20,679 bases of DNA from positions 1 to 20,679 of IMG/VR virus record IMGVR_UViG_3300017725_000101. The stretch is one strand, 5' to 3'. Origin of the DNA: a virus. This document shows, in pieces, positions 1 to 19,634 of this stretch. The translations under genes and the position numbers were made by a program. How positions within the stretch are numbered: the stretch's first letter is position 1; each line of letters opens with the position of its first letter. A model generated the notes under the pieces. The model saw only the letters and a list, made by a program, of their open reading frames with translations. It searched no databases and was not told the origin of the DNA.

Positions 1-2
1 AA

Positions 3-2240: not shown

Positions 2241-2248
2241 GAGAAAAA

Positions 2249-2530
2249 ATGGCTTTAACAAAAGAAAATATAGTAGATAAATTAGAAATCGTTGAAGATG
2301 GAAGCGTTCAAATCAGAAAAGCTACTGTCATAAAAGAAGACGGGACTGAATTATCTAGAACATTTGAAAGATATGTTCTCCATCCAAGTACTAAAACAGG
2401 AGATACTTGGGGAGATACAGATATTTCTACGGAAGATGATAGAACTAAAGCAGTTTGTTCAGCGGTTTGGACAGATGCTGTTAAAAGTAGCTATCAAACT
2501 GCTTATGATGCTTCATTTGCATCAGAATAA
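2249..2530 (+). CDS. Small conserved-type hypothetical protein, 93 aa
   Basis: The open frame extends up to 2162, but the better start is the ATG at 2249. It has a strong AGGAGA at 2239-2244, just after the TAG of fibre A, and avoids an 87-nt overlap. The 93-residue product (MALTKENIVDKLEIVEDGSV..., ending ASFASE) is acidic and soluble, with no signal peptide or membrane segment. The N-terminal half reads as alternating beta strands (KLEIVEDGSVQIRKATVIKEDGTE) and the C-terminal half as helix. Small proteins starting MALTKEN and placed beside tail fibre genes are familiar to me from marine T4-like phages, but I know of no assigned function. Co-transcription and translational linkage with fibre A suggest an accessory role such as a fibre assembly factor or small virion protein; that is inference. 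Confidence 0.8.
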   Translation: MALTKENIVDKLEIVEDGSVQIRKATVIKEDGTELSRTFERYVLHPSTKTGDTWGDTDISTEDDRTKAVCSAVWTDAVKSSYQTAYDASFASE

Positions 2531-2546
2531 AGGTATAAATAATTAA
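2531..2546 (+). promoter_or_regulatory. T4-type late promoter abutting the start of gene C
   Basis: AGG at 2531-2533 is followed by a perfect TATAAATA at 2534-2541, then ATTAA and the ATG at 2547. TATAAATA is the T4 late promoter -10 element, read by the gp55-type sigma factor. Transcription normally starts about six bases after the box, which here is the start codon itself. There is no Shine-Dalgarno between box and ATG. Confidence 0.8.
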
Positions 2547-4310: not shown

Positions 4311-4311
4311 T

Positions 4312-4461
4312 ATGGAAGAATATACAAAAGAAGAAACATTAGATATAATAAATGAAGGTGGTGGAATATTTCCAGTAGCAGTAAATGGTGATATTGTTAA
4401 CCAGTATGGTCATTGGTTTATTATGAAAAATGATAAATGGGAATATCAACCTCCTGAATAA
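4312..4461 (+). CDS. Small hypothetical protein, 49 aa
   Basis: A short frame runs from the ATG at 4312 to the TAA at 4459-4461 and fills the gap between fibres C and D. It encodes 49 residues (MEEYTKEETLDIINEGGG... ending KNDKWEYQPPE), acidic and rich in aromatic residues in its second half (QYGHWFIMKNDKWEYQ). The start is one base after the stop of fibre C, a spacing that favours translational coupling. The stop lies six bases before the late promoter box of D, so the frame fits its interval exactly. No family is recognised. Its place matches the fibre-then-small-gene pattern of the array, so a fibre accessory role is possible. The alternative is a chance frame, but the tight fit and sensible composition argue for a real gene. 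Confidence 0.7.
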   Translation: MEEYTKEETLDIINEGGGIFPVAVNGDIVNQYGHWFIMKNDKWEYQPPE

Positions 4462-4463
4462 AT

Positions 4464-4480
4464 AGGTATAAATAAGTAAT
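4464..4480 (+). promoter_or_regulatory. T4-type late promoter abutting the start of gene D
   Basis: AGG at 4464-4466, perfect TATAAATA at 4467-4474, then AGTAAT and the ATG at 4481. The spacing is one base longer than at C, F, H and gp13. Initiation six bases after the box would place the 5' end at or one base before the ATG. Confidence 0.8.
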
Positions 4481-6637
4481 ATGGCATTTTCAAAAGCAAG
4501 AAGATTATCAGATTTTATAGCAGCAGATGGTACTATACCAACTGGGAAATTTGCCAGTGGGACAATTACTTCTGCTCATATAGCTAACTTAGGAATTACT
4601 CATGCTGATCTCCATACTAATATGGATCTTACTGGTAAAACTGTTCTAGTAGCAAATGCATCAACTGGCGATAATGATACGACCGCAGCAAATACGGCAT
4701 TCGTACAACAAGAAATCGCAGCATTAGTTGATAGCTCACCTTCAGCTTTAAATACATTAAATGAATTAGCTGCAGCTTTAGGCGATGATGCAAATTTTAG
4801 TACAACAGTTAATACTAATATAGCAGCAAAACTACCACTAGCAGGTGGTACGATGACAGGCCATTTGCGAGGAACTTCTTTTAGTGTTGGCGCTGGAGAT
4901 GCTGGAGAAGCACTTAATATTCTTGATGGTGGACACACGGGACAAGGAGCAGCAAATACAGTAAGTTTAGCTTCTTTTGCAGAAAGCGCTTCTGGAAATT
5001 CCGCGGGTCTTTGGATTGGTTCTATGACTAACGAGAACACTGCTGTTCTTGGATCAAGGACATCTTCGGGAAATTTTGCATTTCAAACTTATCATAATAG
5101 TGCTTGGGGCGAAAGAATGCGAATTTCTTCAGGTGGTAATGTTGGTATTGGTACTCTCGCAAATATTGATCAAATGCTCCACCTAGAAAAATCTGCAGGA
5201 ACAACGATAGTAAAAACAGAAGTTGCAGCAAACAGCATAGTCGGTTTTGAAATACAAAAAACAGGCTCAACCACTTCTAATTGGAGAATCGTAGATGGAC
5301 AAACAGCTAATGGCAATTTAGAAATATATGATGTAACAGATTCTCGCTCAGTAATGATGATTGATGGTGATGGCGATATTGGTATGGGTGTTGCTCCTGC
5401 CACACATGCAAAATTAACATTAGGTGGAACTGCAACCTCATACAGTTCGGTTTTAGCATTTGATAATAATACTGCTGGTGGTGCAACATTCTTTATGGTA
5501 GCGTCAGATAACACATGGTCAGCAGGCGCCAATAAGTTTCTCATGGGGCATGGTGTACCCTCTAGTTCTGCGGTTGACGTTACTATAGATGCAGATGGTA
5601 GAGTTGCTATTGGAACAGATACTCCAAGTGCGCACACTCCTTTAACTGCTTATTATAGCTCTACTAGTCAATTTAATATAGGTGGACCACAAGCTGGTAT
5701 TTCTAATAATGTTTATTATAATGGTTCTGCTTATACAAATAGAAACACAGGTGCAGGTGGATCACTATTACAAATGGCCACTGATGGTAGTTTTGCATTT
5801 AGGAGAGCAACATCAGGTAGTTCACCTACATTAAATTACTCAATGTACATCGATGCAAATGGAGCTGTTGGTATTGGACCGACTTCTATATCTTCAGGCG
5901 TAAAGCTAGAGGTAACTGGTGGTAAAATATACGTACCAGGTCATAACATACAAGCACAGACTGCTTTAATTGGTGGATATACTAATTATAAATGGAAAGA
6001 ACAACCATCAAACAACGCAGCATCTGGTCCAACAAATAATAGATCCGCAGCCTTTATAGGGTCAAACTCATCGACTACTGGTATTGTTTTGCAAAGAGAT
6101 TCAATTGGAAATACTTTTCCAGACTTTGCGATTACAGAGAGTGGATATACATACATCAACGGCAATATAACAATGCAAAATGGTGGTAATGATTCTGCTG
6201 ACTATCGTTCGGGAGCTGCTGGTTATGTTAATTGGGGCTCAAAAATAGAAAATCATGGTTGGAAGAACTGGTCTGGTACTGGAAACTATACTGCAAGATT
6301 ATATACACCTATCGTTCATAATGAAGGAAATATGTTTCAACTAGAAATCGATGTATTTGGATATAGTACGGGTGGTTATGCTCAAAGATACATTGGTGGA
6401 GGATATGCTTATTCGGGAAGTTCATTAATAGCACACGGTACTGTAGCACTATCTGGAACTTTAACACATAGATTAACTACAGCAACACATCCAAACTTTA
6501 ATTCAACAGTGGTTTGTTTTGATATAGGTCATACTAATAATAACGGAACAGCTTATTATAATCATATGAGATGGAGATATCAGGGTTGGAATGGTAAGAA
6601 ATCAGAAGATTTTGTTTGGTCAGCAGTAACAACATAG
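4481..6637 (+). CDS. Tail fibre-like protein D
   Basis: The product has 718 residues. The N-terminus (MAFSKARRLSDFIAADGTIP.., about 1-60) is unlike those of the other fibres and may be its attachment part. Residues 66-129 are the shared adaptor, of the LNELAAALGDDANFSTTV type. The shaft carries GERMRISSGGNVGIGT, DIGMGVAP, VAIGTDTP and VGIGPTS repeats spaced along about 200-480. Residues about 593-718 (GWKNWSG...YTARLYTPIVHNEGNMFQLEIDVFGYS...) form a beta-rich tip that may be distantly related to the tips of C and J. There is no S74 or C1q signature. A receptor-binding role is inferred from architecture. The start is fixed by the late promoter box six bases upstream and by the conserved ATGGC context. 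Confidence 0.86.
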   Translation: MAFSKARRLSDFIAADGTIPTGKFASGTITSAHIANLGITHADLHTNMDLTGKTVLVANASTGDNDTTAANTAFVQQEIAALVDSSPSALNTLNELAAALGDDANFSTTVNTNIAAKLPLAGGTMTGHLRGTSFSVGAGDAGEALNILDGGHTGQGAANTVSLASFAESASGNSAGLWIGSMTNENTAVLGSRTSSGNFAFQTYHNSAWGERMRISSGGNVGIGTLANIDQMLHLEKSAGTTIVKTEVAANSIVGFEIQKTGSTTSNWRIVDGQTANGNLEIYDVTDSRSVMMIDGDGDIGMGVAPATHAKLTLGGTATSYSSVLAFDNNTAGGATFFMVASDNTWSAGANKFLMGHGVPSSSAVDVTIDADGRVAIGTDTPSAHTPLTAYYSSTSQFNIGGPQAGISNNVYYNGSAYTNRNTGAGGSLLQMATDGSFAFRRATSGSSPTLNYSMYIDANGAVGIGPTSISSGVKLEVTGGKIYVPGHNIQAQTALIGGYTNYKWKEQPSNNAASGPTNNRSAAFIGSNSSTTGIVLQRDSIGNTFPDFAITESGYTYINGNITMQNGGNDSADYRSGAAGYVNWGSKIENHGWKNWSGTGNYTARLYTPIVHNEGNMFQLEIDVFGYSTGGYAQRYIGGGYAYSGSSLIAHGTVALSGTLTHRLTTATHPNFNSTVVCFDIGHTNNNGTAYYNHMRWRYQGWNGKKSEDFVWSAVTT
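4676..4867 (+). repeat. Fibre adaptor module, copy 2 (D)
   Basis: Encodes residues 66-129 of fibre D, ending KLPLAGGTMTG. It groups with the H copy (LNELAAA, GDDANFSTTV) rather than with C and F. Confidence 0.85.
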
Positions 6638-6646
6638 GAGAATTAA

Positions 6647-6943
6647 ATGAATGATTTTACAGACGCACCATGGTTAAATAATACGCCTCCTCCACAGGAG
6701 ATTACAGACAAAATAGAAGAATTAAATGGTTATATTAACAGGAGAATTCAGGCTTATAATAGAATAGAAGAACAATTAGATCTTCTATTTAAAGACGTAG
6801 ATGCAGGTAAATTTGGAGATGATGCTAAAACTGGTTCATGGTATTTACATGTAAAATCAGTAAAAGACGATTATTTAAAACCAAGTAATCCCGAAACATT
6901 ACAAGAAGAATTAGATTCGCTAATAACGAAACACCACGGGTAG
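6647..6943 (+). CDS. Small hypothetical fibre-linked protein, 98 aa
   Basis: It starts at 6647 behind GGAGA at 6637-6641, which overlaps the TAG of fibre D. The 98-residue acidic protein has a proline-rich start (PWLNNTPPPQ). A predicted helix with YNRIEEQLDLLFKDVDAG spans residues 37-54, followed by SWYLHVKSVKDDYLKPSN at 64-81 and a final helix at 84-95. The 'IEEQLDLL(Y/F)KD' pattern recalls small proteins next to tail fibre genes in marine phages, where no firm function is known to me. A role in fibre assembly or in the collar is possible but not shown. The following 67 nt contain the promoter region of gene E. Confidence 0.8.
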   Translation: MNDFTDAPWLNNTPPPQEITDKIEELNGYINRRIQAYNRIEEQLDLLFKDVDAGKFGDDAKTGSWYLHVKSVKDDYLKPSNPETLQEELDSLITKHHG

Positions 6944-6979
6944 ATAAATAGTTATTGGAAGGATAAATCGGTATAAATA
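6943..6979 (+). promoter_or_regulatory. Late promoter of gene E with two upstream look-alikes
   Basis: TATAAATA at 6972-6979 is a perfect late box. Upstream lie GATAAATA at 6943-6950, overlapping the previous stop codon, and GATAAATC at 6962-6969. The perfect box is 31 nt before the ATG, leaving a true leader with a ribosome binding site, unlike the other late promoters of this window. Confidence 0.75.
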
Positions 6980-6993
6980 GTAATATTAACCTT

Positions 6994-7007
6994 GGAGAGT
7001 GAAAAGG
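6994..7007 (+). promoter_or_regulatory. Ribosome binding site of gene E
   Basis: GGAGAG at 6994-6999 and AAAAGG at 7002-7007 precede the ATG at 7011. The first is 11 bases from the ATG and the second 3 bases, so the purine-rich stretch as a whole is the likely site. It confirms the 7011 start. Confidence 0.65.
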
Positions 7008-7010
7008 TAA

Positions 7011-9188
7011 ATGGCAACACAACACAATTTTAGAATTAAGAACGGCTTAGAAGTCGCAGGTACCGAGCGTATCTCATCTGCTGGTGCCATAACTCCACAA
7101 TCATTAACTGTAACTGCTGATGCTAGTGTAGGTGGAAACCTAACAATTACTGGTAATCTTGTAGTTAATGGTAGTACAACAACTATTGATACTGCAACTC
7201 TAAGTGTTGAAGATCTTAATATTACTGTTGCTTCAGGTGCCGGTAATTCATCTGCTGCAGACGGAGCAGGCCTTACCATAGCTGGAGCAAGTGCAATCTT
7301 TGCTTGGGATCACGCACAAGGAGCAATGACACTTAATAAAGAGCTAAGACTTGATAATAACAAAGGTTTATTCTTTAGAAATTCTAGCTCTAATGGAACA
7401 CTAGGATTAAAAGCAGACACATCAGATAATATTACATTTAGACAAAATGGCCAATGGGATAGACTAGTTATTAAAGATGATGGAGTAGATATTGCTGGCC
7501 ATATTTATACTCCTAATAGTATATCTTCAGGATTTGCATCTACTTTAAAAGGATATTTTTACGAAAGTACTGTAGATCAAAATGGAACTGGTAAACCATC
7601 TAGTGTTTTAGGTCTTGCTGCAAATATTAATTCAAGGGGAGAAGGACCTTCTATAGACTTTAATGCTGTTTGGACTGGTGCAGCAGGATATCAACAAGAT
7701 AATTGGAATGAAGGATGGACAGTAGGCCGAGTAGCTGGTGTATATGATTCATCGGGATTAGATACTGGTGCTTTAGCATTTTACACACAAACATCCGGTT
7801 CTTCAGGTGGAGCAAGTTCTTCTTCTTTAACTGAAAAAATGCGAATCACTAGTGCAGGCAATGTTGGTATAGGAGTAAGCGTCCCGCTCTCTCCTTTATC
7901 TGTTCAGGCAGATGGTGGTGCTGGAGTAGCTCGTTTTATTGGAAGAGCTGCAGATAATATTTCTAGTATAGGATTCTACAATAATGGTCAAAGCGCCGAT
8001 TCGTATCTTCAAAGTAATAGTTCTTGGATAAGAGCTAGAGCAGATGGTGGTTTTCATTTCAGAAAAGGCAATACACCAATAGTTACAGATACAGACGGTT
8101 TTACTATTAATGGCATGAATCTTGGTATTGGAACTGCAGATCCCCAAAGAGAATTACACGTACATAATTCTAGTAGTGGTGCAACTCCGACAAGTAATAG
8201 TGTTGCTGTTTTTGAAGGCAATGATAATACAGAAATAAGTATACTTGGTGGAAGTAGTTCTGTTCTCGCAATTAATTTTGGACACAGTGGTGATAATAAT
8301 GAAGGACTCATTTATTTCAATACTACTACTGGTTCAGAAAATATGCAACTCCAGTCTACAAAAGACATTACATATCAAGTTACTTCAACTAACTCTACTG
8401 CAGGACACCACATATTTAAGTCTCATAATACAGAGATTATGAAAATTGATGGTCAACATAATAGAGTTGGTATTAATGTAAGTCCAGGATCTGCACTTAC
8501 AGTTAAACCATCTGGAAGTATAGGTGATGGTGCTAATATTGTAGATTTTATAGGATCAGATATAAATCAAAGATTAATTGTAGCCAATTTTGCATGTGGA
8601 TCAGATGAAGACCGTGTAGGTTTTATTTGGGAAAATCAAGGTGTAGCATTATGGCGTAACTGGATGGATGATGATGGCCATTTAAGATTAAAATCAAGCA
8701 ATCCAACACATGACCATGATGGAAAAAGAGTCGTAACAGAAACATTAGTTACAGGAACTTCTGGAGGTTTCTTAGAACAAGTAAGAGTTTATCCAGGAAA
8801 CGTTGCAAACTATACTGGAGATGTAGAAGGTGGTGTTAATAAAGGCGGAACACAAATCTGGATTTTTAGTATACAAGGAAATAACACTTGGTATAAAGTA
8901 TTAACAAATATGCATGATATGACATTTGAAATGTTCACAGCAATAGGTGATGCTGGATCCCGTGACCAAGCATCTTATTCAGTTAATATGACATCACCGG
9001 CTTATGGTGTGAGTAGTTTAAATCAAAATTATTATCATAATGGTGGTTGGAATACTGGAAGTTTTGAATACCGATTTGTGGCTACACCCGGAAATAATGC
9101 ACAATATGATTTAGAATGTAGATTTACGAGTTACTACTCTTCATCTAATGTAGCAACTGGTTATATACATATGAGGAGATTATATTAA
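7011..9188 (+). CDS. Tail fibre-like protein E
   Basis: The product has 725 residues. The N-terminus MATQHNFRIKNGLEVAGTE resembles the 'HNFR.KNGL.V.GT' start of many cyanophage fibres. Residues 40-105 carry the 'NLTITGNLVVNGSTTTIDT..LSVEDLNITV' module common in marine phage structural proteins. This gene lacks the adaptor shared by C, D, F and H. Shaft repeats include EKMRITSAGNVGIG, LGIGTADPQRELHV and VGINVSPGSALTV. A block around residues 455-481 (YQVTS....AGHHIF.S.NTEIM) is duplicated in fibre F. Residues about 586-725 form a tip (VRVYPGNVANYTG... ending GYIHMRRLY) that I do not recognise. It is the only promoter-proximal fibre with a leader and ribosome binding site. Its stop overlaps the next start (TAATG). 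Confidence 0.86.
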   Translation: MATQHNFRIKNGLEVAGTERISSAGAITPQSLTVTADASVGGNLTITGNLVVNGSTTTIDTATLSVEDLNITVASGAGNSSAADGAGLTIAGASAIFAWDHAQGAMTLNKELRLDNNKGLFFRNSSSNGTLGLKADTSDNITFRQNGQWDRLVIKDDGVDIAGHIYTPNSISSGFASTLKGYFYESTVDQNGTGKPSSVLGLAANINSRGEGPSIDFNAVWTGAAGYQQDNWNEGWTVGRVAGVYDSSGLDTGALAFYTQTSGSSGGASSSSLTEKMRITSAGNVGIGVSVPLSPLSVQADGGAGVARFIGRAADNISSIGFYNNGQSADSYLQSNSSWIRARADGGFHFRKGNTPIVTDTDGFTINGMNLGIGTADPQRELHVHNSSSGATPTSNSVAVFEGNDNTEISILGGSSSVLAINFGHSGDNNEGLIYFNTTTGSENMQLQSTKDITYQVTSTNSTAGHHIFKSHNTEIMKIDGQHNRVGINVSPGSALTVKPSGSIGDGANIVDFIGSDINQRLIVANFACGSDEDRVGFIWENQGVALWRNWMDDDGHLRLKSSNPTHDHDGKRVVTETLVTGTSGGFLEQVRVYPGNVANYTGDVEGGVNKGGTQIWIFSIQGNNTWYKVLTNMHDMTFEMFTAIGDAGSRDQASYSVNMTSPAYGVSSLNQNYYHNGGWNTGSFEYRFVATPGNNAQYDLECRFTSYYSSSNVATGYIHMRRLY
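8372..8452 (+). repeat. Shaft block shared between fibres E and F, copy 1
   Basis: Encodes YQVTSTNSTAGHHIFKSH followed by NTEIMKIDG. The matching copy in F is at 10714-10795. The proteins agree at most positions and the DNA is clearly similar, suggesting duplication or recombination between fibre genes. Confidence 0.75.
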
Positions 9189-9433
9189 TGGCTAAAACAG
9201 CAACAATTACAAGTTATCAAGAAGATTTTGATAATAGTCAAATGATAGATTGCCCTGCAGATATTATTGCAGCAAACGACATGATGAATGAAGGAGATCA
9301 AATTAACGAGATTTTATTAACTCATCCACTACCATATAAAGTGGAATTTAAAGATGGATCAACTTCTCACGGTCAATCATATTATAAAACAGAAGAAGAA
9401 GCAGAACAAGCTAAAATAGACTGGGAAAGATAA
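9188..9433 (+). CDS. Small hypothetical acidic protein, 81 aa
   Basis: The ATG at 9188 shares its A with the stop of fibre E (TAATG). AGGAGAT at 9174-9180 supplies a ribosome binding site inside the end of the fibre gene, so translation is coupled. The 81-residue product (MAKTATITSYQEDFDNSQMI... ending QAKIDWER) is soluble, acidic and has no membrane segment. It shows a beta-like middle (ILLTHPLPYKVEFKDGSTSHG) and a charged helix at the end (TEEEAEQAKIDWER). No family is recognised. Its location immediately after a fibre gene, before a new late promoter, repeats the array's fibre-then-small-gene pattern and hints at a partner of fibre E. Confidence 0.78.
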   Translation: MAKTATITSYQEDFDNSQMIDCPADIIAANDMMNEGDQINEILLTHPLPYKVEFKDGSTSHGQSYYKTEEEAEQAKIDWER

Positions 9434-9436
9434 ATT

Positions 9437-9453
9437 AGGATATAAATAGTAAT
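9437..9453 (+). promoter_or_regulatory. T4-type late promoter abutting the start of gene F
   Basis: AGGA at 9437-9440, perfect TATAAATA at 9441-9448, then GTAAT and the ATG at 9454. The whole stretch through ATGGC closely matches the box at gp13. Confidence 0.8.
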
Positions 9454-11937
9454 ATGGCATTAACAAAAGTACCAAGTAATTTAGACGCAACTATAGCTAC
9501 TACTCAGAGTGCGAGTGATAATAGCACAAATGTTGCAACTACAGCATATGTAACAACCGCTATAGCAAATTTAGTGGATGGTGCACCTTCAACTCTAAAT
9601 ACATTAGATGAAATCGCTGCAGCTTTAAATGACGATGCAGCTTTAAATACTACACTTACAAATAGTATTGCTCTTAAAGCGCCATTAGCAAACCCAGATT
9701 TTACTGGTCAATTACAAGTTACGAATTCAGCTACAACAGTACAAGAACTTATCGTTACCGGTAATAATACAAGGTCAGCACTTAGCTTACAATCGAAAGA
9801 TCCTTCTGGGGGAACAGTTGATTTAAGAATGCATTCTTTAGGCGATGGTCCAAGAGGAGAAATATTTACATTTTCAAATCATGACTTAGCATTTGCTACA
9901 AACAATAGTGCTCCTAAAATGACACTTGATACTGGAGGAAGGTTAGGAATACAGCAAACACCTACAGCAAATAATTTTACTTTACAAGTTAAAGGAATAC
10001 AAACAGACGGTTCAGATGGTAGAGTAGCTTACTTTAAAGGATATGGATCACAAACTTCTATTGGAAGTACTGGTCCATCAGTAGTTATACAAAATGCAAA
10101 TAATACAACAAATAATTATACTAAACTAAGTTTTGAATCAGCCGGTGCTGGAGAAACTGTTTCGATAAATTCACAGAATATAGACCATACAAATCATTAT
10201 GGTGATATGGCTTTTAATACTAGAGGCTCTGGTGGATATTATGAAAAGGCACGTATTAAAGCTAATGGACACTTAGAATTTAACCCGGTTAATTCTTTTG
10301 CAGCTTTAAATAATAGTATTCTATCAAGTTCAAATACATATCTATATATGATGGGTGGAGCTGCTGGATTATACTTAGCAAATAATTCTGGCCTTGATAC
10401 TTCTATTGGTATAAGAGACGCAAATTATATAGACTTCAATACAAGTAGTGGTGAAAAGATGAGGCTTACCAGTGCTGGAATTCTTGATATCGGTAAAGCA
10501 TCGTTTTCTAGTTATCCCGCTGGCTCAAAATTAAATGTTTATGCAGATGGAGAAGGAATTAGATTAGATGGAACTGGAGGTACAACTAGAAGACTAAGAT
10601 TTAGAAATGTTGGTGCTGGAACCGGTCCTGGGGAAATTGTTGCTGATGGTTCATTGATAATTAAAAATGAAGATGCTAATGCTTATCTTAATTTAAGCTC
10701 TATAAGAAATATAGAATATCAAGTTACATCAGGAAATGGTACTGCTGGGCATCATATATTTAATTCTTATAATACAGAAATTATGAGACTTGATGGTGCT
10801 AGTAATAATGCAAAATTTACATATCCGATTCTTCAAGGTGGTTCAACATCATCAGTTGGAATTGGTTCAACAATGGCCGATGTTAATGGAGCAGAACTTG
10901 GACCAGGATATTTAAACCTAGCTAGAGACGATACTGTAGATGCTAAACAAATCAGCTTTAGTAAAAATGGTGTAAGAGTTTCTGATATATCTACTACAGA
11001 TAAAGGTATTTTGTGGGAAGTTTTAGAATCATCGGGTAACGCAGCTGCTTTCCAAGTGACAAATGGTGTAGGACAAACTGTTTGGGGTTCCATGAACGCT
11101 CAAGGGCATAAATGGCAGGATAATGTTTATAATGCGTTCTCAGCTGGTGGAATGTCAATGGGTTCTGATAGTTCAAACACTTCACACATGTGGTGGAATG
11201 TTTATGATACAGGATCGAAACATGGTGTATCTGCTGGTTATGGAATGGATGAATATGTATCAAATTCAACTGGTGATTATACTATTCGTATGTCAGATAG
11301 TTCTGGTTTCGTAGGAGATGGAGTAGTATTAACAGAAAGATATCGATTCACTAATAAAGGTTCATTAAATATTTATGCAACTGGTAGTCAAAACGAAACT
11401 AATGATGCAAAAATATATGTAGTAAAAAATAGTTCTTCAGATTGGTCTATGAGTTTAATATCTGGTGCTGATGATTACGGAATTAGAGTAAGAGGTAACG
11501 GGGCTTATGCATTTGGATGTATTGATCATAATGCAAATAGTTATAGAGCTAGAATACATTATAGTGGATATATTTACTCATCTGATGGTACAATTCATGA
11601 TATTGATTCCGATGTAAGATTAAAAGAAGAAATAGTAGCTGCTCCTTCACAATGGCAAATGATAAAAGATTTACCATTGCAAAAATATAAATGGAAAGAT
11701 AGAAGACATGGTGATATAGATTCATATGGATGGATTGCGCAAGAGGTAGAAAAAAAATATCCAGAGTTTGTAGAACCAATACCGCAAACAAAAGAAGCTG
11801 CAGATGCTGGAGAACAAGATCCAGAATATTTAACTGTAAAAACTGGTGATATAACAAGAAGAGCTCTAGCAGCTTTACAAGAAGCAATGGCAAGAATAGA
11901 AACATTAGAAGCTGAGGTGGCAGCACTTAAAGGATAA
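9454..11937 (+). CDS. Tail fibre-like protein F with S74 intramolecular chaperone
   Basis: At 827 residues this is the longest fibre in the window. Residues 22-87 are the shared adaptor (C-type, ending KAPLANPDFTG). The shaft holds divergent repeats (LGIQQTP, EKMRLTSAGILDIG) and the block shared with E at about residues 421-448. The C-terminal 109 residues are a peptidase S74 / intramolecular chaperone domain. It begins SDVRLKEEI with Ser719 and Lys724, the spacing of the self-cleavage Ser-Lys pair known from endosialidases. YGWIAQEVEKKYPEFV follows, then a C-terminal leucine-heptad helix (LAALQEAMARIETLEAEVAA). In the family this domain trimerises the fibre, cuts itself off before Ser and leaves. 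The expected mature fibre would therefore be about 718 residues. The start is set by the late box five bases upstream. Confidence 0.9.
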   Translation: MALTKVPSNLDATIATTQSASDNSTNVATTAYVTTAIANLVDGAPSTLNTLDEIAAALNDDAALNTTLTNSIALKAPLANPDFTGQLQVTNSATTVQELIVTGNNTRSALSLQSKDPSGGTVDLRMHSLGDGPRGEIFTFSNHDLAFATNNSAPKMTLDTGGRLGIQQTPTANNFTLQVKGIQTDGSDGRVAYFKGYGSQTSIGSTGPSVVIQNANNTTNNYTKLSFESAGAGETVSINSQNIDHTNHYGDMAFNTRGSGGYYEKARIKANGHLEFNPVNSFAALNNSILSSSNTYLYMMGGAAGLYLANNSGLDTSIGIRDANYIDFNTSSGEKMRLTSAGILDIGKASFSSYPAGSKLNVYADGEGIRLDGTGGTTRRLRFRNVGAGTGPGEIVADGSLIIKNEDANAYLNLSSIRNIEYQVTSGNGTAGHHIFNSYNTEIMRLDGASNNAKFTYPILQGGSTSSVGIGSTMADVNGAELGPGYLNLARDDTVDAKQISFSKNGVRVSDISTTDKGILWEVLESSGNAAAFQVTNGVGQTVWGSMNAQGHKWQDNVYNAFSAGGMSMGSDSSNTSHMWWNVYDTGSKHGVSAGYGMDEYVSNSTGDYTIRMSDSSGFVGDGVVLTERYRFTNKGSLNIYATGSQNETNDAKIYVVKNSSSDWSMSLISGADDYGIRVRGNGAYAFGCIDHNANSYRARIHYSGYIYSSDGTIHDIDSDVRLKEEIVAAPSQWQMIKDLPLQKYKWKDRRHGDIDSYGWIAQEVEKKYPEFVEPIPQTKEAADAGEQDPEYLTVKTGDITRRALAALQEAMARIETLEAEVAALKG
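9517..9714 (+). repeat. Fibre adaptor module, copy 3 (F)
   Basis: Encodes residues 22-87 of fibre F. It is close to the C copy up to TLTN, then diverges to KAPLANPDFTG, the form frequent in other phage tail fibres. Confidence 0.85.
10714..10795 (+). repeat. Shaft block shared between fibres E and F, copy 2
   Basis: Encodes YQVTSGNGTAGHHIFNSY followed by NTEIMRLDG in fibre F. It is the partner of the block at 8372-8452 in fibre E. Confidence 0.75.
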
Positions 11938-11941
11938 TTAA

Positions 11942-13579
11942 ATGGCAAACACAAAACTACCAGCACGATTATTAGATACATCAGCGATCCCGGCGTTAAA
12001 CGTTACTGGGGATTTAACTGTGGATACTACTACTCTTAAAGTAGATTCTACTAATAATAGAGTTGGTATTGGTGTTGCTTCACCTGCAGGTCTTCCTTTG
12101 CAAACAAAAGTATCAAGTGGAGACAACAAGCTTAGGATGACTACTGCTAGTAAAGATGCATTTATTTTAGAGCTAAAAGATGCGAGTGGCGATGTACATC
12201 TTGGTACAAACACAACAGCGGGCGCAATAGTAATAGCAGATGGCGGCAAGGTTGGTATTGGCACAAATAATCCAAGTACAAAACTTACGGTTAAAAATGA
12301 TAATGCCACTACAAGTTTTGGTGATAATAATATTATTACTATTCAAAATGCAAATACTACAGATAATTCAAGAATGGGATTGGCATTTACGGGAAATACC
12401 AACGTAGGTAGTGGTCTTGCTTTAGTAGAAGGCGTTAGTTATGATCAGTCTCAGGGACATACAAGTTTAAACTTTAGTGTTTACAACGGTTCTTGGCATA
12501 ACGATATGATGGTGTTAAAGGCTGGTAGAGTTGGAATTGGAGAAACTGATCCAGACTTTAAGTTGCATGTTAAAGATACAAACACTCAAATTGCTATTGA
12601 GTCAACTACTACTAATCAAAACTCCTCTCTTTATTATATAGCTAATGGAGCGAATCAATGGGAGACTGGAGTAAATATTACTGCAGGTTTAGATTACGAA
12701 ATCTACGATAGAGTAAATAATGGTGCTAGGATGGTTGTTCAGCATGACGGCAAGATTAGAATTGGTAATAATATTCCAATGTGGTCAGGCGCTTATGGTG
12801 GTGCTTTAGTATTAAAAGGTAATAATGCTACTAGTGACAGATATGCACAGTTAACCGTAGTAGATTCTAGTGGGTCGATAGCATACACTGGATTAATAGT
12901 AAATAATACTGGAAACGTTGGTATTGGTACTAATAACCCACAGAAACTAACCCATATAAGAGGAGCGGGCGATGGAACTCATCTCAGAATAGCTAGAAAT
13001 GGGGTTTCGGAATGGGATTTCTCTATTGGTAATACATCTACATTGTCTGGTGTAGGATCTGGCGCTTTGGAGATTCTTCCACAAAATGGCAATTCAGCTA
13101 ATGAATTTGCAATAGGTCAAGCGGGTACAACTGCCAGCATGCTTCACTTACACGCATACGGCATGAATTTACCAAAACAAACCGTTTTTTCAGCAGCTCT
13201 TCCTGCTGTGACAAATGGTGGTAACACAATTGTTTGGGGTGGGGAACACTTGGATGTAGGTGGAAACTTTAATACATCAAATGGCAGGTTCACAGCACCT
13301 ATAGGAGGCAACTACTTCTTTTCTTTTTGGTTGTTGCTAGACCCTTCAGGCGCAGGAAACTATTCAAGAGTATTATTTAAAAAAAATGGCAGCGTTTCAA
13401 CGCAATGGACAGACAATTTAGAGTCTACAGATGCTGGGGCAACCGCGGCTTATCATTCGGTAGGAGGATCAGCAGTCATACCTATGGCTGCAAATGACTA
13501 CATTGAACTTCATAACGACGGGCAAAACCCCACATACGGAACATCATACGGAAACTTTAGCGGATTTTTAGTTTCTTAA
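11942..13579 (+). CDS. Tail fibre-like protein G with C1q-like tip
   Basis: The product has 545 residues. The short N-terminus (MANTKLPARLLDTSAIPALNVTG) carries no adaptor. A dense shaft follows with VGIGVASP, KVGIGTNNPSTKLTV, RVGIGETDPDFKLHV, IRIGNNIP and NVGIGTNNPQKLTHI. Residues about 413-545 fit the C1q/TNF-like fold: FSAALPAV at the start, then GNFNTSNGRFTAPIGGNYFF (442-461), a VLFKKNG strand, SAVIPMAANDYIELHND, and a closing NFSGFLVS. In that family such domains are trimeric jelly-rolls that bind ligands, which suits a receptor-binding tip. The tip DNA is richer in G+C than neighbouring genes (29 of 60 bases in 13201-13260 and in 13441-13500), hinting at separate origin. The gene starts four bases after F behind AGGA at 11931-11934 and has no TATA box, so it depends on F's transcript. 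Confidence 0.86.
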   Translation: MANTKLPARLLDTSAIPALNVTGDLTVDTTTLKVDSTNNRVGIGVASPAGLPLQTKVSSGDNKLRMTTASKDAFILELKDASGDVHLGTNTTAGAIVIADGGKVGIGTNNPSTKLTVKNDNATTSFGDNNIITIQNANTTDNSRMGLAFTGNTNVGSGLALVEGVSYDQSQGHTSLNFSVYNGSWHNDMMVLKAGRVGIGETDPDFKLHVKDTNTQIAIESTTTNQNSSLYYIANGANQWETGVNITAGLDYEIYDRVNNGARMVVQHDGKIRIGNNIPMWSGAYGGALVLKGNNATSDRYAQLTVVDSSGSIAYTGLIVNNTGNVGIGTNNPQKLTHIRGAGDGTHLRIARNGVSEWDFSIGNTSTLSGVGSGALEILPQNGNSANEFAIGQAGTTASMLHLHAYGMNLPKQTVFSAALPAVTNGGNTIVWGGEHLDVGGNFNTSNGRFTAPIGGNYFFSFWLLLDPSGAGNYSRVLFKKNGSVSTQWTDNLESTDAGATAAYHSVGGSAVIPMAANDYIELHNDGQNPTYGTSYGNFSGFLVS

Positions 13580-13595
13580 TAAAACGGAGAATAAT

Positions 13596-13850
13596 ATGGA
13601 TTATACAATAACACTATCAGATACAGAAAAGAAATGTATGGAATACATAGCTGTTGATGTGGACGAGTGGATTACAAATGCAGCAACTAATAGAGCGGCA
13701 GTAGCTAAGCAAGAAATACTTAAATTGAATATGGAATATTGCAATGAGAATAGTGTAACTATTGCTACGGGTGAAGATGCGCAAATAACTCAAGCCTATA
13801 CATTAGGTGTTATAAAAAAATTAGCAGATGCTTCTACTTCTACACCATAA
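13596..13850 (+). CDS. Small hypothetical protein, 84 aa
   Basis: It starts at 13596 behind GGAGA at 13586-13590, 16 bases after fibre G. The 84-residue product reads MDYTITLSDTEKKCMEYIAV, then a mostly helical stretch (DEWITNAATNRAAVAKQEILKLNMEYC) and a low-complexity end (ASTSTP). 'T.TDTEKKALEY.A..(P/V)..WI.NA...RA' patterns are familiar to me from small genes beside marine phage fibres, with no function known. There is no membrane segment or signal peptide. Its position after G and before the promoter of H follows the array's pattern. Confidence 0.8.
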   Translation: MDYTITLSDTEKKCMEYIAVDVDEWITNAATNRAAVAKQEILKLNMEYCNENSVTIATGEDAQITQAYTLGVIKKLADASTSTP

Positions 13851-13851
13851 T

Positions 13852-13868
13852 AGGATATGAATAATTAA
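13852..13868 (+). promoter_or_regulatory. Variant late promoter abutting the start of gene H
   Basis: AGGA at 13852-13855, TATGAATA at 13856-13863 (one mismatch to TATAAATA), ATTAA, then the ATG at 13869. Position and flanks match the perfect boxes, and the ATTAAATGGC end equals that of gene C, so it is probably a weaker late promoter. Confidence 0.65.
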
Positions 13869-15704
13869 ATGGCAACTCAAGTAAAAACAGGATTAATAGC
13901 AAACGATGCAATTACAGATGCAAAGATTGCTAATGTAGCTTTAACAGGTGTTACTGCCTCAAGTGGTGATAGTAGTACCTCATTGGCTACAACTGCTTTT
14001 GTTGCAACAGAAATTAATAGTTTAATCGATTCAGCTCCAGGTGCATTAAATACACTTAATGAACTTGCTGCAGCAATGGGTGATGATGCTAACTTTAGTA
14101 CAACTGTTACCAATAGTATAGCAACGAAACTGCCGCTTGCTGGTGGAACATTAACTGGTGATTTAGTATTAAAATCAGATGGTGGTTCGGATGTTATAAA
14201 TGTTGTTCACTCAGGTAACACAGTACAACTTGTATCTATTGGTCAGAGTAGTGATAACTCTGGTAATGGAGTAATACAACTTAAAAGAAATAACGGTGTA
14301 CTACATTCACAAATACACTCACACGGCAGTACATATTTCAATGGAGGTAGTGTAGGCATAGGGTTTGCATCAGGTACTCCGGGAAGAAAATTACATATTA
14401 AAGATGGCGGTCAAATAAAATTAGAAAGTAGTTCATCTGGCGGTTGGGTTGGTTTAGATTTTGCTGCAGGAAATGGAACATATGATGGATATATGGGAAT
14501 GCTTGATAGTAACGGTCGTTTCTTTATTGATGTAGATTCCAATGGAGAAGATTTAACAATATTACAGAACGGCAACGTTGGTATTGGAACTTCAAACCCA
14601 GCAGGTCAATTGCATGTTTACTCTGGAGATGCTGGTGCAGTTACTCCATCATCGCAAGCAGATGATTTAGTTGTAGAAAACAGCGCAGAAGGTGGCATAA
14701 CTATTATGACACCAGATGATCAATCAGCTAGAATTAGATTTACAAGTCCATCCACTGAGTCAGGAGATGAAGGTGGAGCAGACATTTTCTATCGTCAAAA
14801 CATTAATAAGATGTCACTGGGTACTACAGTTTCAGGCGGTAAATTAGCTTTTAAATCTGGAGCCGGTGTTGAAACTATGATACTAGATAACGGTAATGTT
14901 GGTATCGGTGTAACTCCTGCAGCTTGGTATGGTAATGCTTCTGCATTACAAATATCTCCTACAGGTGCATTATATAATACAAGTAACTGGGAAGATTTAA
15001 ATTTAGGTAATAACGTTTATATTAATAGTAGTGGAACAGACTCTTATATACAAGCTGATGCAGCCTGTAAGATACGATTAACAGATGCCGGTCTAATGGA
15101 TTTCAGAGTAGCAGGTGCAGGTTCAGCAAACGCAGCGATAAGTTGGAATACTGCCATAGCAATAAATTCTTCAGGACAAGTTTTAGTAGGTGGAGCTCCT
15201 GGTGCTTGGGTTGATGGTAATGATATACTAATAACACACGGTAGAGGTATTTTTAAAGGATTTGGACATTCTGCGTTAGCTTTAGGTAGATATAATTCTG
15301 GGGGAACTGCTGGTGAAGCAGGGTCCATGCTTGCGTTCTTATATGGAGGAGCCGGTATTGGTACTATCAGCATTACAACTAATTCAACTCAATATAACAC
15401 AACTTCAGATATCCGTTTAAAAGAAAATATACAAACCATTGTTGATGGTAGTAGTAAAATAATGGCAATGAATCCTGTGTCACACACATGGAAGGCTAAT
15501 CCTACAGAGGATGCAGTGCACGGATTTATAGCGCAGGAAATAAAAGATATTGTTCCAGAAGCAGTGACAGGAGAACCTGAGGGTGAAGAAATGATGCAAA
15601 TGGATTATGGTCGTATCACTCCTGTAATTGTTGCTGGACTACAAGATGCTTTAAAGGAAATAGAAAAATTAAAAGAAAGAATTAATGAGTTGGAGAATAA
15701 GTAA
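13869..15704 (+). CDS. Tail fibre-like protein H with S74 intramolecular chaperone
   Basis: The product has 611 residues. The N-terminus MATQVKTGLIANDAITDAKI leads into the shared adaptor at 33-99 (D-type, LNELAAAMGDDANFSTTV, ending KLPLAGGTLTG). The shaft includes VGIGFASGTPGRKLHI, NVGIGTSNPAGQLHV and NVGIGVTPAAWYG. The last 99 residues are an S74 domain starting SDIRLKENI, with Ser513 and Lys518 in the self-cleavage spacing. HGFIAQEIKDIVPEAV follows, then a charged coiled-coil end (DALKEIEKLKERINELE). The region just before the cleavage site is short shaft-like sequence and not an obvious globular tip. The fibre might therefore bind with its shaft end or use the next gene product, J, as tip. 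The stop overlaps J's start (TAATG). Confidence 0.9.
   Translation: MATQVKTGLIANDAITDAKIANVALTGVTASSGDSSTSLATTAFVATEINSLIDSAPGALNTLNELAAAMGDDANFSTTVTNSIATKLPLAGGTLTGDLVLKSDGGSDVINVVHSGNTVQLVSIGQSSDNSGNGVIQLKRNNGVLHSQIHSHGSTYFNGGSVGIGFASGTPGRKLHIKDGGQIKLESSSSGGWVGLDFAAGNGTYDGYMGMLDSNGRFFIDVDSNGEDLTILQNGNVGIGTSNPAGQLHVYSGDAGAVTPSSQADDLVVENSAEGGITIMTPDDQSARIRFTSPSTESGDEGGADIFYRQNINKMSLGTTVSGGKLAFKSGAGVETMILDNGNVGIGVTPAAWYGNASALQISPTGALYNTSNWEDLNLGNNVYINSSGTDSYIQADAACKIRLTDAGLMDFRVAGAGSANAAISWNTAIAINSSGQVLVGGAPGAWVDGNDILITHGRGIFKGFGHSALALGRYNSGGTAGEAGSMLAFLYGGAGIGTISITTNSTQYNTTSDIRLKENIQTIVDGSSKIMAMNPVSHTWKANPTEDAVHGFIAQEIKDIVPEAVTGEPEGEEMMQMDYGRITPVIVAGLQDALKEIEKLKERINELENK
13965..14165 (+). repeat. 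Fibre adaptor module, copy 4 (H)
   Basis: Encodes residues 33-99 of fibre H. It is nearest to the D copy. Confidence 0.85.
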
Positions 15705-16195
15705 TGACAGATGCAGTATATTTAGCAAAAGAAGGGTTATACAATACCGTAGGGCGAATAGTAAACCAGCATGTACCAGCTTTCGGCCGGAGTGGGAGCA
15801 GAGGTCAAAGAGCATGTCTTGGATTTTTTGGAGCAAATGGAGCATCTTATATTCATGTAAAAATGTCTGCAGGAGGAAGTGCTGATAGAATGCATAAATT
15901 TGAATATGACGGTTACACTTACTCGTCTTTAAATGTTCATAATTCAGTAACGTTTTATACTTACAATGGAACTTCTACTCCATATCAACCGAGTCTTGTA
16001 AATTGGGGAGAAACCACAGGTGGAATCGTAAATTATTACTATTCTTCTTCAGATGATAAGATTGTAATAGTATTACAGACGAGTGGGTCATACACTGGAG
16101 GATTTCTCTATCATCAAACTGGACAATCACATGTTGACCATTCATGTGATGTAATAGCACATACTTCAAGTGCTAATATCAGTGGAGTTTACTAA
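15704..16195 (+). CDS. Stand-alone fibre tip-like protein J, 163 aa
   Basis: The ATG overlaps the stop of H (TAATG). The 163-residue product has no adaptor or shaft repeats. It aligns with the C-terminal tip of fibre C: YIHVKMS matches YLHIKTD, DGYTYSS matches KGYTYSA, SSSDDKIVIVLQTSGSYTGG matches RSSDNYVVIVLSIGNNYPG, and both end SGVY after a matching VIAHTSSAN / VLAFTKNAN. It therefore looks like a fibre head encoded separately. A function as a detachable tip on H, whose S74 domain leaves after trimerisation, or as a second baseplate tip, is inference. Its stop overlaps the next start (TAATG), making an H-J-16195 coupled unit. There is no signal peptide or membrane segment. Confidence is good for the homology and low for the role. 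Confidence 0.8.
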   Translation: MTDAVYLAKEGLYNTVGRIVNQHVPAFGRSGSRGQRACLGFFGANGASYIHVKMSAGGSADRMHKFEYDGYTYSSLNVHNSVTFYTYNGTSTPYQPSLVNWGETTGGIVNYYYSSSDDKIVIVLQTSGSYTGGFLYHQTGQSHVDHSCDVIAHTSSANISGVY

Positions 16196-16554: not shown

Positions 16555-17652
16555 ATGGCTAAACCAAACAGCAGATCAACATTAATTCAATATTGCAAAA
16601 GGGCTTTAGGGCATCCTGTGATAGAAATTAATATAGATGATGATCAGGTAGATGATAGAATTGATGAGGCTTTACAGTTTTATCAAGAGTATCATGCTGA
16701 TGCTATTGAAAAAGTATATTTAAAGCACTTAGTTACTAAAACAGATCAAACTAATGGGTATATAACCATACCTAATTTAGTGACAAATGTTGTAAGACTT
16801 ATGCCTTTAACTGATTCGAATTTAACAAACAATATGTTTGATGTTAAATATCAAGTCATGCTTAATGATATGCATTCACTTGGGTTTATGGGTCAATTAC
16901 ATGATTTTACTATGAAGATGCAACATCTAGCTATGTTAGATATGGTACTTGATAGTGATGAAAAACATGTAGATTTTAATAGACATAAGAATCAATTAAG
17001 AGTTAATATGGATTGGTCTACTGATACTGAAACTCCAGATGATGTAACTATAGCTGTTACTGTTTCTGGTGGTAAATTCTTATTTGATGGGCAAACAACT
17101 CCAAATAAAACATTATCAATAGGGTCAACAATTACTTTTGATCAATCACATGCTTCAAACGCTGGCCATCCACTTAAATTAAGTACTACTATTAATGGTG
17201 CACATGCAAGTGGAAGTGAATACACTTCTGGAGTAACTTATGCTGGAACTCCGGGTCAAGCAGGATCAAGCACAAAACTAGTAGTAACAGATACAACAGA
17301 AACTTCGTTATATTATTACTGTCAAGTACATAGTGGAATGGGTAATTCTGGATTACTTACATCTGAACTTACACCAGGTAAATTTACTTATCTAGTCGTC
17401 GAATGTTATAGAATAGTAGACCCAGATACATATACTGAAGTATATAATGATTATTACTTAAAAAAATATGCTACAGCTTTAATTAAACAACAATGGGGTC
17501 TTAACCTATTAAAATTTGAAGGTATGCAAATGCCCGGTGGTGTTACCTTTAATGGTCGACAAATATTTGATGATTCAAGAGAAGAAATCGAAAAGCTTAC
17601 TGAAGAAGCTAGGCTTAATTGGGAAGAACCTATCGATTTTTACACGGGGTAA
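16555..17652 (+). CDS. 13: Neck protein gp13 with inserted cupredoxin-like domain
   Basis: T4 gp13 with gp14 completes the filled head and makes the neck that accepts the tail. Residues 1-155 (SRSTLIQYCKRALGHPVIEI, DDDQVDDRIDEALQFYQEYH, YLKHLVT) and 275-365 (FTYLVVECYRIVDPDTYTEV, YNDYYLKKYATALIKQQWG, FNGRQIFDDSREEIEKL) match the marine T4-like gp13 family. Between them, at about 163-270, is an extra domain with GHPLKLS (His205) and YYYCQVHSGMG (Cys256, His259, Met262). Those are the four ligand types and the C-x2-H-x2-M spacing of a type-1 copper site. The protein is 365 residues, against about 309 in T4 and, from memory, about 260 in cyanophages. It starts five bases after a perfect late box and stands three bases before gp14. 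Confidence 0.88.
   Translation: MAKPNSRSTLIQYCKRALGHPVIEINIDDDQVDDRIDEALQFYQEYHADAIEKVYLKHLVTKTDQTNGYITIPNLVTNVVRLMPLTDSNLTNNMFDVKYQVMLNDMHSLGFMGQLHDFTMKMQHLAMLDMVLDSDEKHVDFNRHKNQLRVNMDWSTDTETPDDVTIAVTVSGGKFLFDGQTTPNKTLSIGSTITFDQSHASNAGHPLKLSTTINGAHASGSEYTSGVTYAGTPGQAGSSTKLVVTDTTETSLYYYCQVHSGMGNSGLLTSELTPGKFTYLVVECYRIVDPDTYTEVYNDYYLKKYATALIKQQWGLNLLKFEGMQMPGGVTFNGRQIFDDSREEIEKLTEEARLNWEEPIDFYTG
17041..17364 (+). other. Inserted cupredoxin-like domain within gp13
   Basis: Encodes about residues 163-270 of gp13. It starts VTIAVTVSGGKFLFDG, has SIGSTITFDQSHASNAGHPL in the middle and ends TSLYYYCQVHSGMGNSG. The pattern of strands plus His...Cys-x2-His-x2-Met is that of small blue-copper proteins. 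Similar domains appear in other marine phage structural proteins, so this is probably a movable surface domain. Copper binding is untested. Confidence 0.7.
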
Positions 17653-17655
17653 GTT

Positions 17656-18609
17656 ATGCCTAGAAACGTTTATTTTTCTCAGGCCGTAAGATCCGAACAA
17701 AATCTTTACGAAGATTTAATTATTGAGTCATTAAAAATATATGGCCAAGACATATATTACCTACCTAGAGATATTGTAAATAAAGATTCTATTTTAGGAG
17801 AAGATCAATCTTCTAAATTTGATGATGCATATATGATTGAAGGTTATATAGAAGGCACTGATGGTTTTGAAGGACAAGGAGATTTATATTCTAAGTTTGG
17901 TCTAGAAATAAGAGATGAAGTTAACTTCGTTATTTCTAGAAAAATATGGGATAGGTATGTTGGGTTTCAAGATGAAACAACCGAACAACCAAGACCTAAA
18001 GAAGGTGATTTAATATTTTTACCTTTAACTAATAAGTTTTTTGAAGTCATGTTTGTTGAACATGAACAACCATTTTATCAATTATCTAATCTTCCAGTAT
18101 ATAGATTACAATGTGCTCTATATGAATATGCTGAAGAAGAATTTGATACCGGAATTGCTGGTATTGATTCAATTGAAGAAACAGATACATACCAAGTTAC
18201 TTTAGATTATTCTACCACAAACAATATTCATTTGCAAAAGGGAGAAAAAGTTACTCAAGATCTTACATTTGATACTTCATCTCCTCCTCAAGCTTTAACT
18301 AGTGTATTTGGAGAAGTACAGAAGATAGAAAAACTATCTGCAATTGCTGGTAGAATTCAAGTATCTCAGATAGGAGTTAGTGGTATTGCAGAAGCAAGAG
18401 ACTTTATAGCTTCTTCAACTTTAACTTTAAAAGGTGATACGTCTACAAATACTGTAACAATTACTAAGGTATATGATATTGGAGATAATAGTGCATTTGT
18501 AGATCCTACAGATACGCAAGCAGAAAATGTTGCATTCGAAGTTGCAGCAGACGGTTTCTTAGATTTTACAGAAAGTAACCCATTTGGAGATCCATCGGAT
18601 AATTACTAA
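17656..18609 (+). CDS. 14: Neck protein gp14
   Basis: The 317-residue product fits the T4 gp14 family, which forms the head stopper/neck ring next to gp13 and docks the tail. Supporting segments are MPRNVYFSQAVRSEQNLYED (1-20), YGQDIYYLPRDIVNKD (29-44) and KFDDAYMIEGYIEGTDGFEG (54-73). Others are LYSKFGLEIRDEVNFVISR (78-96), the EGDLIFLPLTNKFFEVMFVE stretch (116-135) and a C-terminal LDFTESNPFGDPSDNY. T4 gp14 has 256 residues; the extra length lies mainly in residues about 180-300, a beta-rich threonine- and serine-rich stretch. It starts three bases after gp13 and its stop overlaps the gp15 start (TAATG), so the neck proteins are translated together. DNA here is very AT-rich (14 G/C of 60 in 17701-17760). 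Confidence 0.88.
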   Translation: MPRNVYFSQAVRSEQNLYEDLIIESLKIYGQDIYYLPRDIVNKDSILGEDQSSKFDDAYMIEGYIEGTDGFEGQGDLYSKFGLEIRDEVNFVISRKIWDRYVGFQDETTEQPRPKEGDLIFLPLTNKFFEVMFVEHEQPFYQLSNLPVYRLQCALYEYAEEEFDTGIAGIDSIEETDTYQVTLDYSTTNNIHLQKGEKVTQDLTFDTSSPPQALTSVFGEVQKIEKLSAIAGRIQVSQIGVSGIAEARDFIASSTLTLKGDTSTNTVTITKVYDIGDNSAFVDPTDTQAENVAFEVAADGFLDFTESNPFGDPSDNY

Positions 18610-19634
18610 TGTTTGGAAGTCATTTTTATCACGCAACAATTAGAAAGTCAGTAGCCGTTTTTGGTACTCTTTTTAATAATATATCTGTCATAAGAAAAGA
18701 TGGCAGTGGTGGTATATTAAATCAAGTTAAAGTTCCATTAGCTTATGGTCCTAAACAAAAATTCTTAGCTCGTATGAATGAAAATTTAGGTGATTCTTCA
18801 ATGGCTCTTAAATTACCAAGAATGGCCTTTGAAATTACCAGTATTGATGTTGACCTAAATCAAAAACAAAATAAAAGAAATAAAATAACAAATGTAGGTA
18901 GCGATAGCTTAACACGAGATAAAATCGATTTTCATGTGCCATATAATATTGGTATGGAATTAACTGTTATGGCTAATAACCAAGATGATGGTTTACAAGT
19001 AGTAGAACAAATCTTACCATATTTTCAACCTGATTATACTGTTTCAATTAAACCTATTGATGGGTGGACAGATTTTAAACAAGATGTTCCTATTGTATTG
19101 AACTCAGTAGCAATAAATGATGATTACGAAGCTGATTTTTTAACTAGAAGAGTATTAACATACACCTTAGGATTTACTATGAAAATGTCATTTTATAGTT
19201 CTAAGGGAAGCCAAAAAGTTATTAAAGAAATTGATATTGATTACACAGATCTAGATAATAAAACTCTTATTTTGGCTGATCAGAATATTCAAGTGGATCC
19301 ATTAACAGCAATTGAATCAGATACATTAGTTTCTGGAACACCAGGATCTGGACAATATAGAATTGTTACTACTATTGACTTTATTAACCAACCACAAACT
19401 CCTACATTAGAATTACAGTCTGATTCTGGCACGTTTAGTGTAGGCGAAACGATAACAGCAACAACTTCTGGATCTACTGGTAGAGTTGGAGCATTTACTC
19501 CTGTAGTTGTAGATGGTGCATTAATAAGAAATGACTTAGCAATAGTAGATGCTGATGGATATTTCCAACCGGGTGAAACAGTAACAGGTGGAACATCAAA
19601 CGCAACTGGCGTAGTTACAACATGGCGAATATAA
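18609..19634 (+). CDS. 15: Tail sheath stabiliser / tail terminator gp15
   Basis: T4 gp15 caps the tail tube and sheath and binds gp14 on the head. The position between gp14 and gp16 and the sequence fit: MFGSHFYHATIRKSVAVFGT, FNNISVIRKDG, VPLAYGPKQKFLARMNE, LPRMAFEITSIDVD, then a PYNIGMELTVMANNQDDGLQ and VEQILPYFQPDYTVSI core. ADFLTRRVLTYTLGFTMKM and FYSSKG close the conserved part at about residue 200. Its 341 residues exceed the 272 of T4. The surplus is a C-terminal tail (about 235-341) with two related units, FSVGETITATTSGSTGRV (276-293) and FQPGETVTGGTSNATGVV (319-336). Its ATG overlaps the gp14 stop. gp16 starts one base after its own stop. Confidence 0.87.
   Translation: MFGSHFYHATIRKSVAVFGTLFNNISVIRKDGSGGILNQVKVPLAYGPKQKFLARMNENLGDSSMALKLPRMAFEITSIDVDLNQKQNKRNKITNVGSDSLTRDKIDFHVPYNIGMELTVMANNQDDGLQVVEQILPYFQPDYTVSIKPIDGWTDFKQDVPIVLNSVAINDDYEADFLTRRVLTYTLGFTMKMSFYSSKGSQKVIKEIDIDYTDLDNKTLILADQNIQVDPLTAIESDTLVSGTPGSGQYRIVTTIDFINQPQTPTLELQSDSGTFSVGETITATTSGSTGRVGAFTPVVVDGALIRNDLAIVDADGYFQPGETVTGGTSNATGVVTTWRI
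19434..19616 (+). repeat. Two-unit GET(I/V)T repeat in the gp15 tail
   Basis: Units encoded at 19434-19487 and 19563-19616 share F..GET(I/V)T..TS..TG.V. This type of unit is common in structural proteins of marine T4-like phages and is expected to be a surface beta element. Confidence 0.65.

Follow-up and report, generated by a model that had tools for sequence, protein, structure and literature searches.

In phage T4, residues 190-239 of the neck protein gp13 form domain III, which binds fibritin (PMC12270204). This domain is disordered in the isolated gp13 ring and ordered in the virion, where twelve copies hold the collar/whisker fibritin trimers (PMC12270204). The mobile domains that decorate phage structural proteins are known chiefly in the form of Ig-like folds; these are widely shared, fibritin included (PMC3797505). 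Tail fibres of marine phages that contain HxH motifs have also been proposed to carry iron, as a Trojan or Ferrojan horse (PMC11705849), an idea related to the present case but without direct bearing on a cupredoxin domain. In our literature search, no phage structural protein was described as having a cupredoxin domain.

Here we describe such a domain in the gp13 of a marine virus. The feature is real and well defined: a fold of copper proteins, with a full ligand set, is used in the way of an Ig-like decoration, and it sits where function has been mapped, in a neck protein for which the T4 relative has a cryo-EM structure. The reading that we favor, with reasonable but not firm confidence, is a mobile cupredoxin decoration or docking domain that would be present twelvefold on the neck and is probably able to bind copper; we infer both its copper loading and its function.

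Gene order and architecture of gp13

The window, i.e., the whole stretch of DNA analyzed (20,679 nucleotides), corresponds to positions 1-20,679 of the IMG/VR record IMGVR_UViG_3300017725_000101 and is a fragment of the genome of a marine virus. A run of tail-fibre-like genes is followed by genes for T4-type gp13, gp14, and gp15 and then for the small and large terminases. The fibre set is unusually large for one contig, with at least seven large fibre-like genes in a row (positions 1-16195), some of which (13869-15701 and 9454-11934) end in an S74 chaperone domain. Features of the neck genes are listed in Table 1.

Table 1 Features of the gp13 gene and its downstream neighbors, with positions in the window
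Feature	Position	Strand	Evidence
gp13-like neck protein (head-tail adaptor Ad2), 365 aa	16555..17652	+	PHROG 211, E 3.7e-36, two stretches; structural match to T4 gp13
gp13 core, N-terminal half, residues 1-158	16555..17028	+	Alignment with T4 gp13 and insert-free relatives
Inserted cupredoxin-like domain with linkers, residues ~159-277	17029..17385	+	Absent in insert-free gp13s; AF2 model; fold matches
His205, predicted first copper ligand (GHPLKLS)	17167..17169	+	Domain residue 47, two before strand E49-52; >=90% conserved (alignment A4)
Cys256, predicted thiolate ligand	17320..17322	+	Domain residue 98, final residue of strand E93-98; >=90% conserved
His259, predicted second His ligand	17329..17331	+	Loop following strand E93-98; >=90% conserved
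Met262, predicted axial ligand	17338..17340	+	C-x2-H-x2-M spacing, as in several bacterial Copper-bind proteins
gp13 core, C-terminal half, residues 278-365, helix bundle	17386..17652	+	Alignment and full-length model
gp14-like neck protein (head closure Hc2), without cupredoxin domain	17656..18609	+	PHROG 460, E 4.9e-85; Pfam T4_neck-protein
gp15-like tail sheath stabilizer, with a C-terminal extension of a different kind	18609..19634	+	PHROG 227, E 1.4e-73; Pfam T4-gp15_tss

The gp13 open reading frame runs uninterrupted across the insert. The protein belongs to the T4 gp13/Ad2 group, with a homologous core on either side of the insert and the gp14 and gp15 genes coming next. The first-pass annotation had proposed an extra domain between two intact halves of gp13, and this holds: PHROG 211 matches both flanks as two separate stretches, and insert-free relatives are only ~249-251 aa long, reading IxMDW-xxEVxVxDY-xVxECY where the window protein has ~117 more residues. 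In alignments of gp13 proteins with and without the insert, the domain is absent from the insert-free ones, which make up most of the relatives, and the insertion point falls in the turn of one beta-hairpin. The span first given for the domain, 17041-17364 (codons 163-270), fits the modeled strands, which run from residue 164 to ~271. The window gp15 has another neck decoration, a C-terminal extension (residues ~245-341) that matches the tail-fibre family PHROG 9851.

Predicted fold of the insert

Searches of PDB sequences with the domain or with a family profile gave nothing significant, so a fold search was needed. AlphaFold2 modeling of full-length gp13 with 25 gp13 relatives was of moderate quality (pLDDT 71), the insert being among the better parts. 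In VIA-align comparisons, this full model matched T4 gp13 (9lu4_A) with Z 15.4 and rmsd 2.4 over 118 aligned residues, and its residues 162-271 matched rusticyanin (2cal) with Z 8.2 and rmsd 2.5 over 98 residues. The insert modeled alone with 102 relatives reached pLDDT 92.5 and pTM 0.86. All 50 matches listed by Foldseek for this model in the PDB were copper cupredoxins or multicopper oxidases: rusticyanins, copper nitrite reductases, and laccase-type oxidases, with E values of 1.3e-3 to 1e-2 and TM ~0.5, rusticyanin being at the top (E 1.3e-3, probability 1.00). VIA-align gave Z 8.5 and rmsd 2.9 both with rusticyanin (103 residues) and with the N-terminal cupredoxin domain of H. denitrificans nitrite reductase (97 residues). 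The models thus predict a cupredoxin fold over the whole domain, in agreement with what had been proposed from the sequence. The Z values of ~8 are middling, which, like the TM of ~0.5, counts against our preferred reading.

The four residues first read as copper ligands (codons at 17167, 17320, 17329, and 17338) are where they had been placed in the sequence. By DSSP, they lie in the domain model as H47, C98, H101, and M104, around strands E49-52, E93-98, and E109-113. The first His precedes a mid strand, Cys closes the last-but-one strand, and the second His and Met follow in the next loop. At the level of predicted secondary structure, this order and placement is that of type-1 copper sites, as had been supposed.

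Sequence links to copper proteins

The window domain scores 16.0 bits against Pfam PF00127 (Copper-bind), under the cut-off of 21.2. An hhalign comparison of the domain profile with canonical Copper-bind proteins gave a weak probability of 12.6%, with the Cys and His in register. Because this profile-profile alignment is weak, the case for homology rests on the fold and on bridging cellular sequences. Two bacterial proteins, L371 and L372, provide this bridge from the phage domain to the Copper-bind family: they match the phage-domain HMM (E 8e-12 and 2e-32, respectively) and score 32.5 and 24.7 bits on PF00127, the only cellular relatives to pass its cut-off. The C-x2-H-x2-M spacing is also found in bacterial Copper-bind proteins with a CGPHPEM-type motif (L393, L394, L396, L397, and L399). 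Plastocyanin-type proteins have an Asn after the first His, where the window domain has a Pro. An origin from cyanophage plastocyanin was considered and has nothing in its favor, the best fold matches being rusticyanin and nitrite reductase. PF25489 (At5g54830-like domain) was matched by 8 of 43 members of the domain family (best E 5.7e-6); the window copy gave no match, and one gp15 domain scored 26.7 against a cut-off of 27.

Evolutionary history and spread of the domain

In a tree of the gp13 core, computed without the insert, the 20 sequences that carry it all group together (support 0.84). Since they form a single clade, the insertion into gp13 appears to have occurred once and then to have been inherited. 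A cupredoxin-fold domain would thus have entered the turn of the gp13 beta-hairpin in an ancestor of this phage group.

The suggestion that this kind of domain is spread among structural genes was borne out, as other phages have it in gp14, gp15, fibres, and baseplate proteins. A separate insertion is present in the gp14 of related phages, with a full ligand set (L154:2057-3322, L155:1814-3079, and L206), near the point where the window gp14 reads TFDTSSPP...SVFGEVQK. In other related phages (L063, L065, L066, L068, and others), the domain is at the C-terminus of gp15. Fibres and baseplate proteins of cyanophages, pelagiphages, and Methylophilales phages often carry it. Among the annotated phage hits listed, no cultured phage had it in gp13; isolates such as P-SSM2, S-TIM5, Melnitz, and Bellamy have it in fibres or in structural proteins of other kinds. 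In cyanophage S-TIM5, which is outside Kyanoviridae, the carrier is a structural protein of the virion, encoded two genes past the portal (L128:2125-3579). Among 149 loci with readable gp13, gp14, and gp15, the domain was found in gp13 (22 loci), gp15 (12), or gp14 (3) and never in two of them. This is no more than suggestive of an enforced rule of one domain per neck, as chance alone would give ~2.5 loci with two and the loci share ancestry.

A scan of bacterial genomes with a single sequence returned no relative, and the family alignment did return relatives. The same domain, 38-73% identical and with the same ligands, is present in marine bacteria and archaea (SAR86, OM182, SAR92, and Marine Group II). 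Several of the carriers, in these groups and in Woeseiaceae, have lipoprotein-like starts, with N-termini that end in ACGGGG in the bacterial ones, and other matches in that scan look phage-derived. The lipoprotein-like N-termini (ACGGGGG) in marine bacteria include those of L298, L300, L305, L313, L322, L324, L330, L331, and others.

Other gp13 insertions were also seen. A second, different insert of ~78 residues is located one loop further on and marks another clade of 10 sequences (L137, L140, L141, L142, L144, L149, L150, L159, L199, and L202); T4 domain III spans both this site and the cupredoxin site. An N-terminal insert near residue 70, with two FxxGExITGGTSGAxA-type repeats, is found in L061, L066, L077, L154, and L155. 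The gp13 proteins of S-CAM9 and S-8S56 were rejected as carriers of the hairpin insert: they are long, but their hairpin is uninterrupted and the extra sequence is N-terminal of it.

Conservation of the predicted ligands and probable copper binding

The likelihood of a chance ligand set was evaluated with the pattern of an H followed, after 35-65 residues, by C-x2-H-x2-4-M. It arose in 79 of 200,000 shuffled versions of the insert and, in six-frame ORFs without the domain (625,161 residues), in only two proteins, with four overlapping matches. Against seven close relatives, the dN/dS of the insert is 0.06-0.29, which shows purifying selection; values in the gp13 core are slightly lower (0.03-0.15).

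Conservation was judged on sets found without a ligand motif, namely the gp13 search (17 distinct inserts) and a tblastn search (19 domains from 18 named phages). Collections found with YYYC..H patterns were left out of the counts, as such a pattern favors sequences that have the ligands. Neither of the two outcomes that would have spoken against the original proposal was seen, and a lack of these residues is not routine among relatives: all four were retained in 15 of the 17 gp13 inserts and in 17 of the 19 named-phage domains, and they are among the few nearly invariant positions of the domain (alignment A4). The exceptions are L018 and L019 (gp13), P-RSM6, and the second domain of S-CAM22 gp7, together with L116 and L119 from other searches. 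These lack Cys, His, and Met jointly rather than singly and retain the fold pattern. Because L018 and L019 sit on separate branches of the gp13 insert clade, the ligands were probably lost twice there. Such a joint loss is what a shared working site would predict, which suggests that there is one. The relatives that keep the fold without the ligands in turn say that, judging by sequence, the site is not always required and that a structural role does not always need copper.

Two variations of the site were noted. In the gp15 C-terminus of L065 (4074-4373), a His takes the place of the axial Met (H, C, H, H). In the gp15 proteins of L072, L077, and L162, and in L122 and L123, an extra segment splits the His half of the domain from the Cys/His/Met half, with the ligands intact in both.

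Free copper is scarce in the cytoplasm, where phage proteins fold; copper loading would thus have to follow lysis. Together with the ligand-free relatives, this favors a purely structural decoration, which we see as possible at a tentative level: the domain would be a metal-free beta-sandwich in the virion with a role like that of Ig-like domains, which phages share widely and place on fibritin too (PMC3797505), and its Cys, His, and Met would be an inherited fold-stabilizing cluster. However, the near invariance of the four ligands and their joint loss suggest a working site, and distant cellular relatives keep all four in 68 of 69 cases, but in a search that used the Cys/His motif. Weighing ligand conservation and joint loss against cytoplasmic folding, ligand-free relatives, and the Pro after the first His, we consider that the domain is probably able to bind copper. 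In the decoration or docking domain that we favor, the type-1-like His-Cys-His-Met site would shape or stabilize the domain tip.

Site on the virion and possible functions

T4 gp13 residues 190-211 align at the insertion point of the window protein. By this alignment and the published T4 structure (PMC12270204), the insert takes the position of T4 domain III, between the swing domain and the second half of the helix bundle. A domain at the head-tail joint, which had been called unexpected, is less so given that segment 190-239 of T4 gp13 is already a fibre-binding module (PMC12270204). By homology to T4, the cupredoxin domain is expected to point away from the gp13 ring toward the outside, with twelve copies should the ring be a dodecamer like that of T4. 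Exposed there on the collar, it would most likely be a module for adhesion or docking, which may hold fibres near the neck or bring the virion weakly to a surface.

A narrower possibility is that the domain functionally replaces T4 domain III and anchors a collar/whisker fibre encoded just upstream of gp13. It occupies the same place in gp13 as the fibritin-binding domain (PMC12270204). In T4, the fibritin gene is directly upstream of gene 13, and in the window, a run of fibre genes occupies that place. No member of the fibritin family was recognized among the upstream fibre genes scanned in this genome fragment, and the domain is also found in gp14, gp15, and fibres, where anchoring is less obvious; we therefore regard this replacement as unlikely. 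We consider quite improbable a metal lure, a copper version of the Ferrojan horse in which exposed copper sites would mimic a copper or metallophore ligand for host surface proteins: an iron version has been proposed for marine fibres with HxH motifs (PMC11705849), and the cupredoxin domain is common in marine phage fibres, but the neck is poorly placed to bind a receptor. Electron transfer or copper handling by the virion would fit the complete type-1 ligand set and the rusticyanin- and nitrite-reductase-like fold and is nevertheless highly improbable, as neither a redox partner nor a second copper center was identified and such activity is rare in structural proteins.

The docking or decoration domain that we favor can be taken further, although only speculatively. 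The collar might be metallated, with up to 12 type-1 copper centers per virion whose copper state would affect fibre attachment or adsorption, the domain having moved between marine bacteria and genes for phage structural proteins. With the same reserve, fewer centers might be present where gp14 or gp15 carries the domain instead. Copper in marine virions can now be tested for, as can the idea that the gp13 hairpin serves generally as a socket into which neck-fibre or adhesion modules fit.

Comparison with known systems

T4 gp13 (PDB 9lu4 and 9lu6) has the same core fold and invariant residues and, at the same hairpin ahead of the final helices, a further segment. It differs in that this segment, domain III, has ~50 residues and binds fibritin (PMC12270204), whereas that of the window is cupredoxin-like and has ~117 residues. 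The Ig-like decoration domains of tailed phages are likewise mobile beta-sandwiches common to unrelated exposed phage proteins; the window domain is set apart from them by its predicted cupredoxin fold and conserved metal-ligand set.

Rusticyanin, the N-terminal domain of H. denitrificans nitrite reductase, and PF00127 proteins of the amicyanin/pseudoazurin type share the predicted fold and the order and placement of His, Cys, His, and Met. In contrast to these type-1 cupredoxins, the window domain is located within a phage structural protein, has a Pro after the first His and a long GTHxxGSEYTTGV region, and falls under the family cut-off in sequence. Some members of the phage-domain family match the At5g54830-like domain (PF25489), which is itself not a phage family. 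The cupredoxin-like domains of marine bacteria and archaea have the same ligands as the window domain and differ in that several sit in lipoprotein-like exported proteins.
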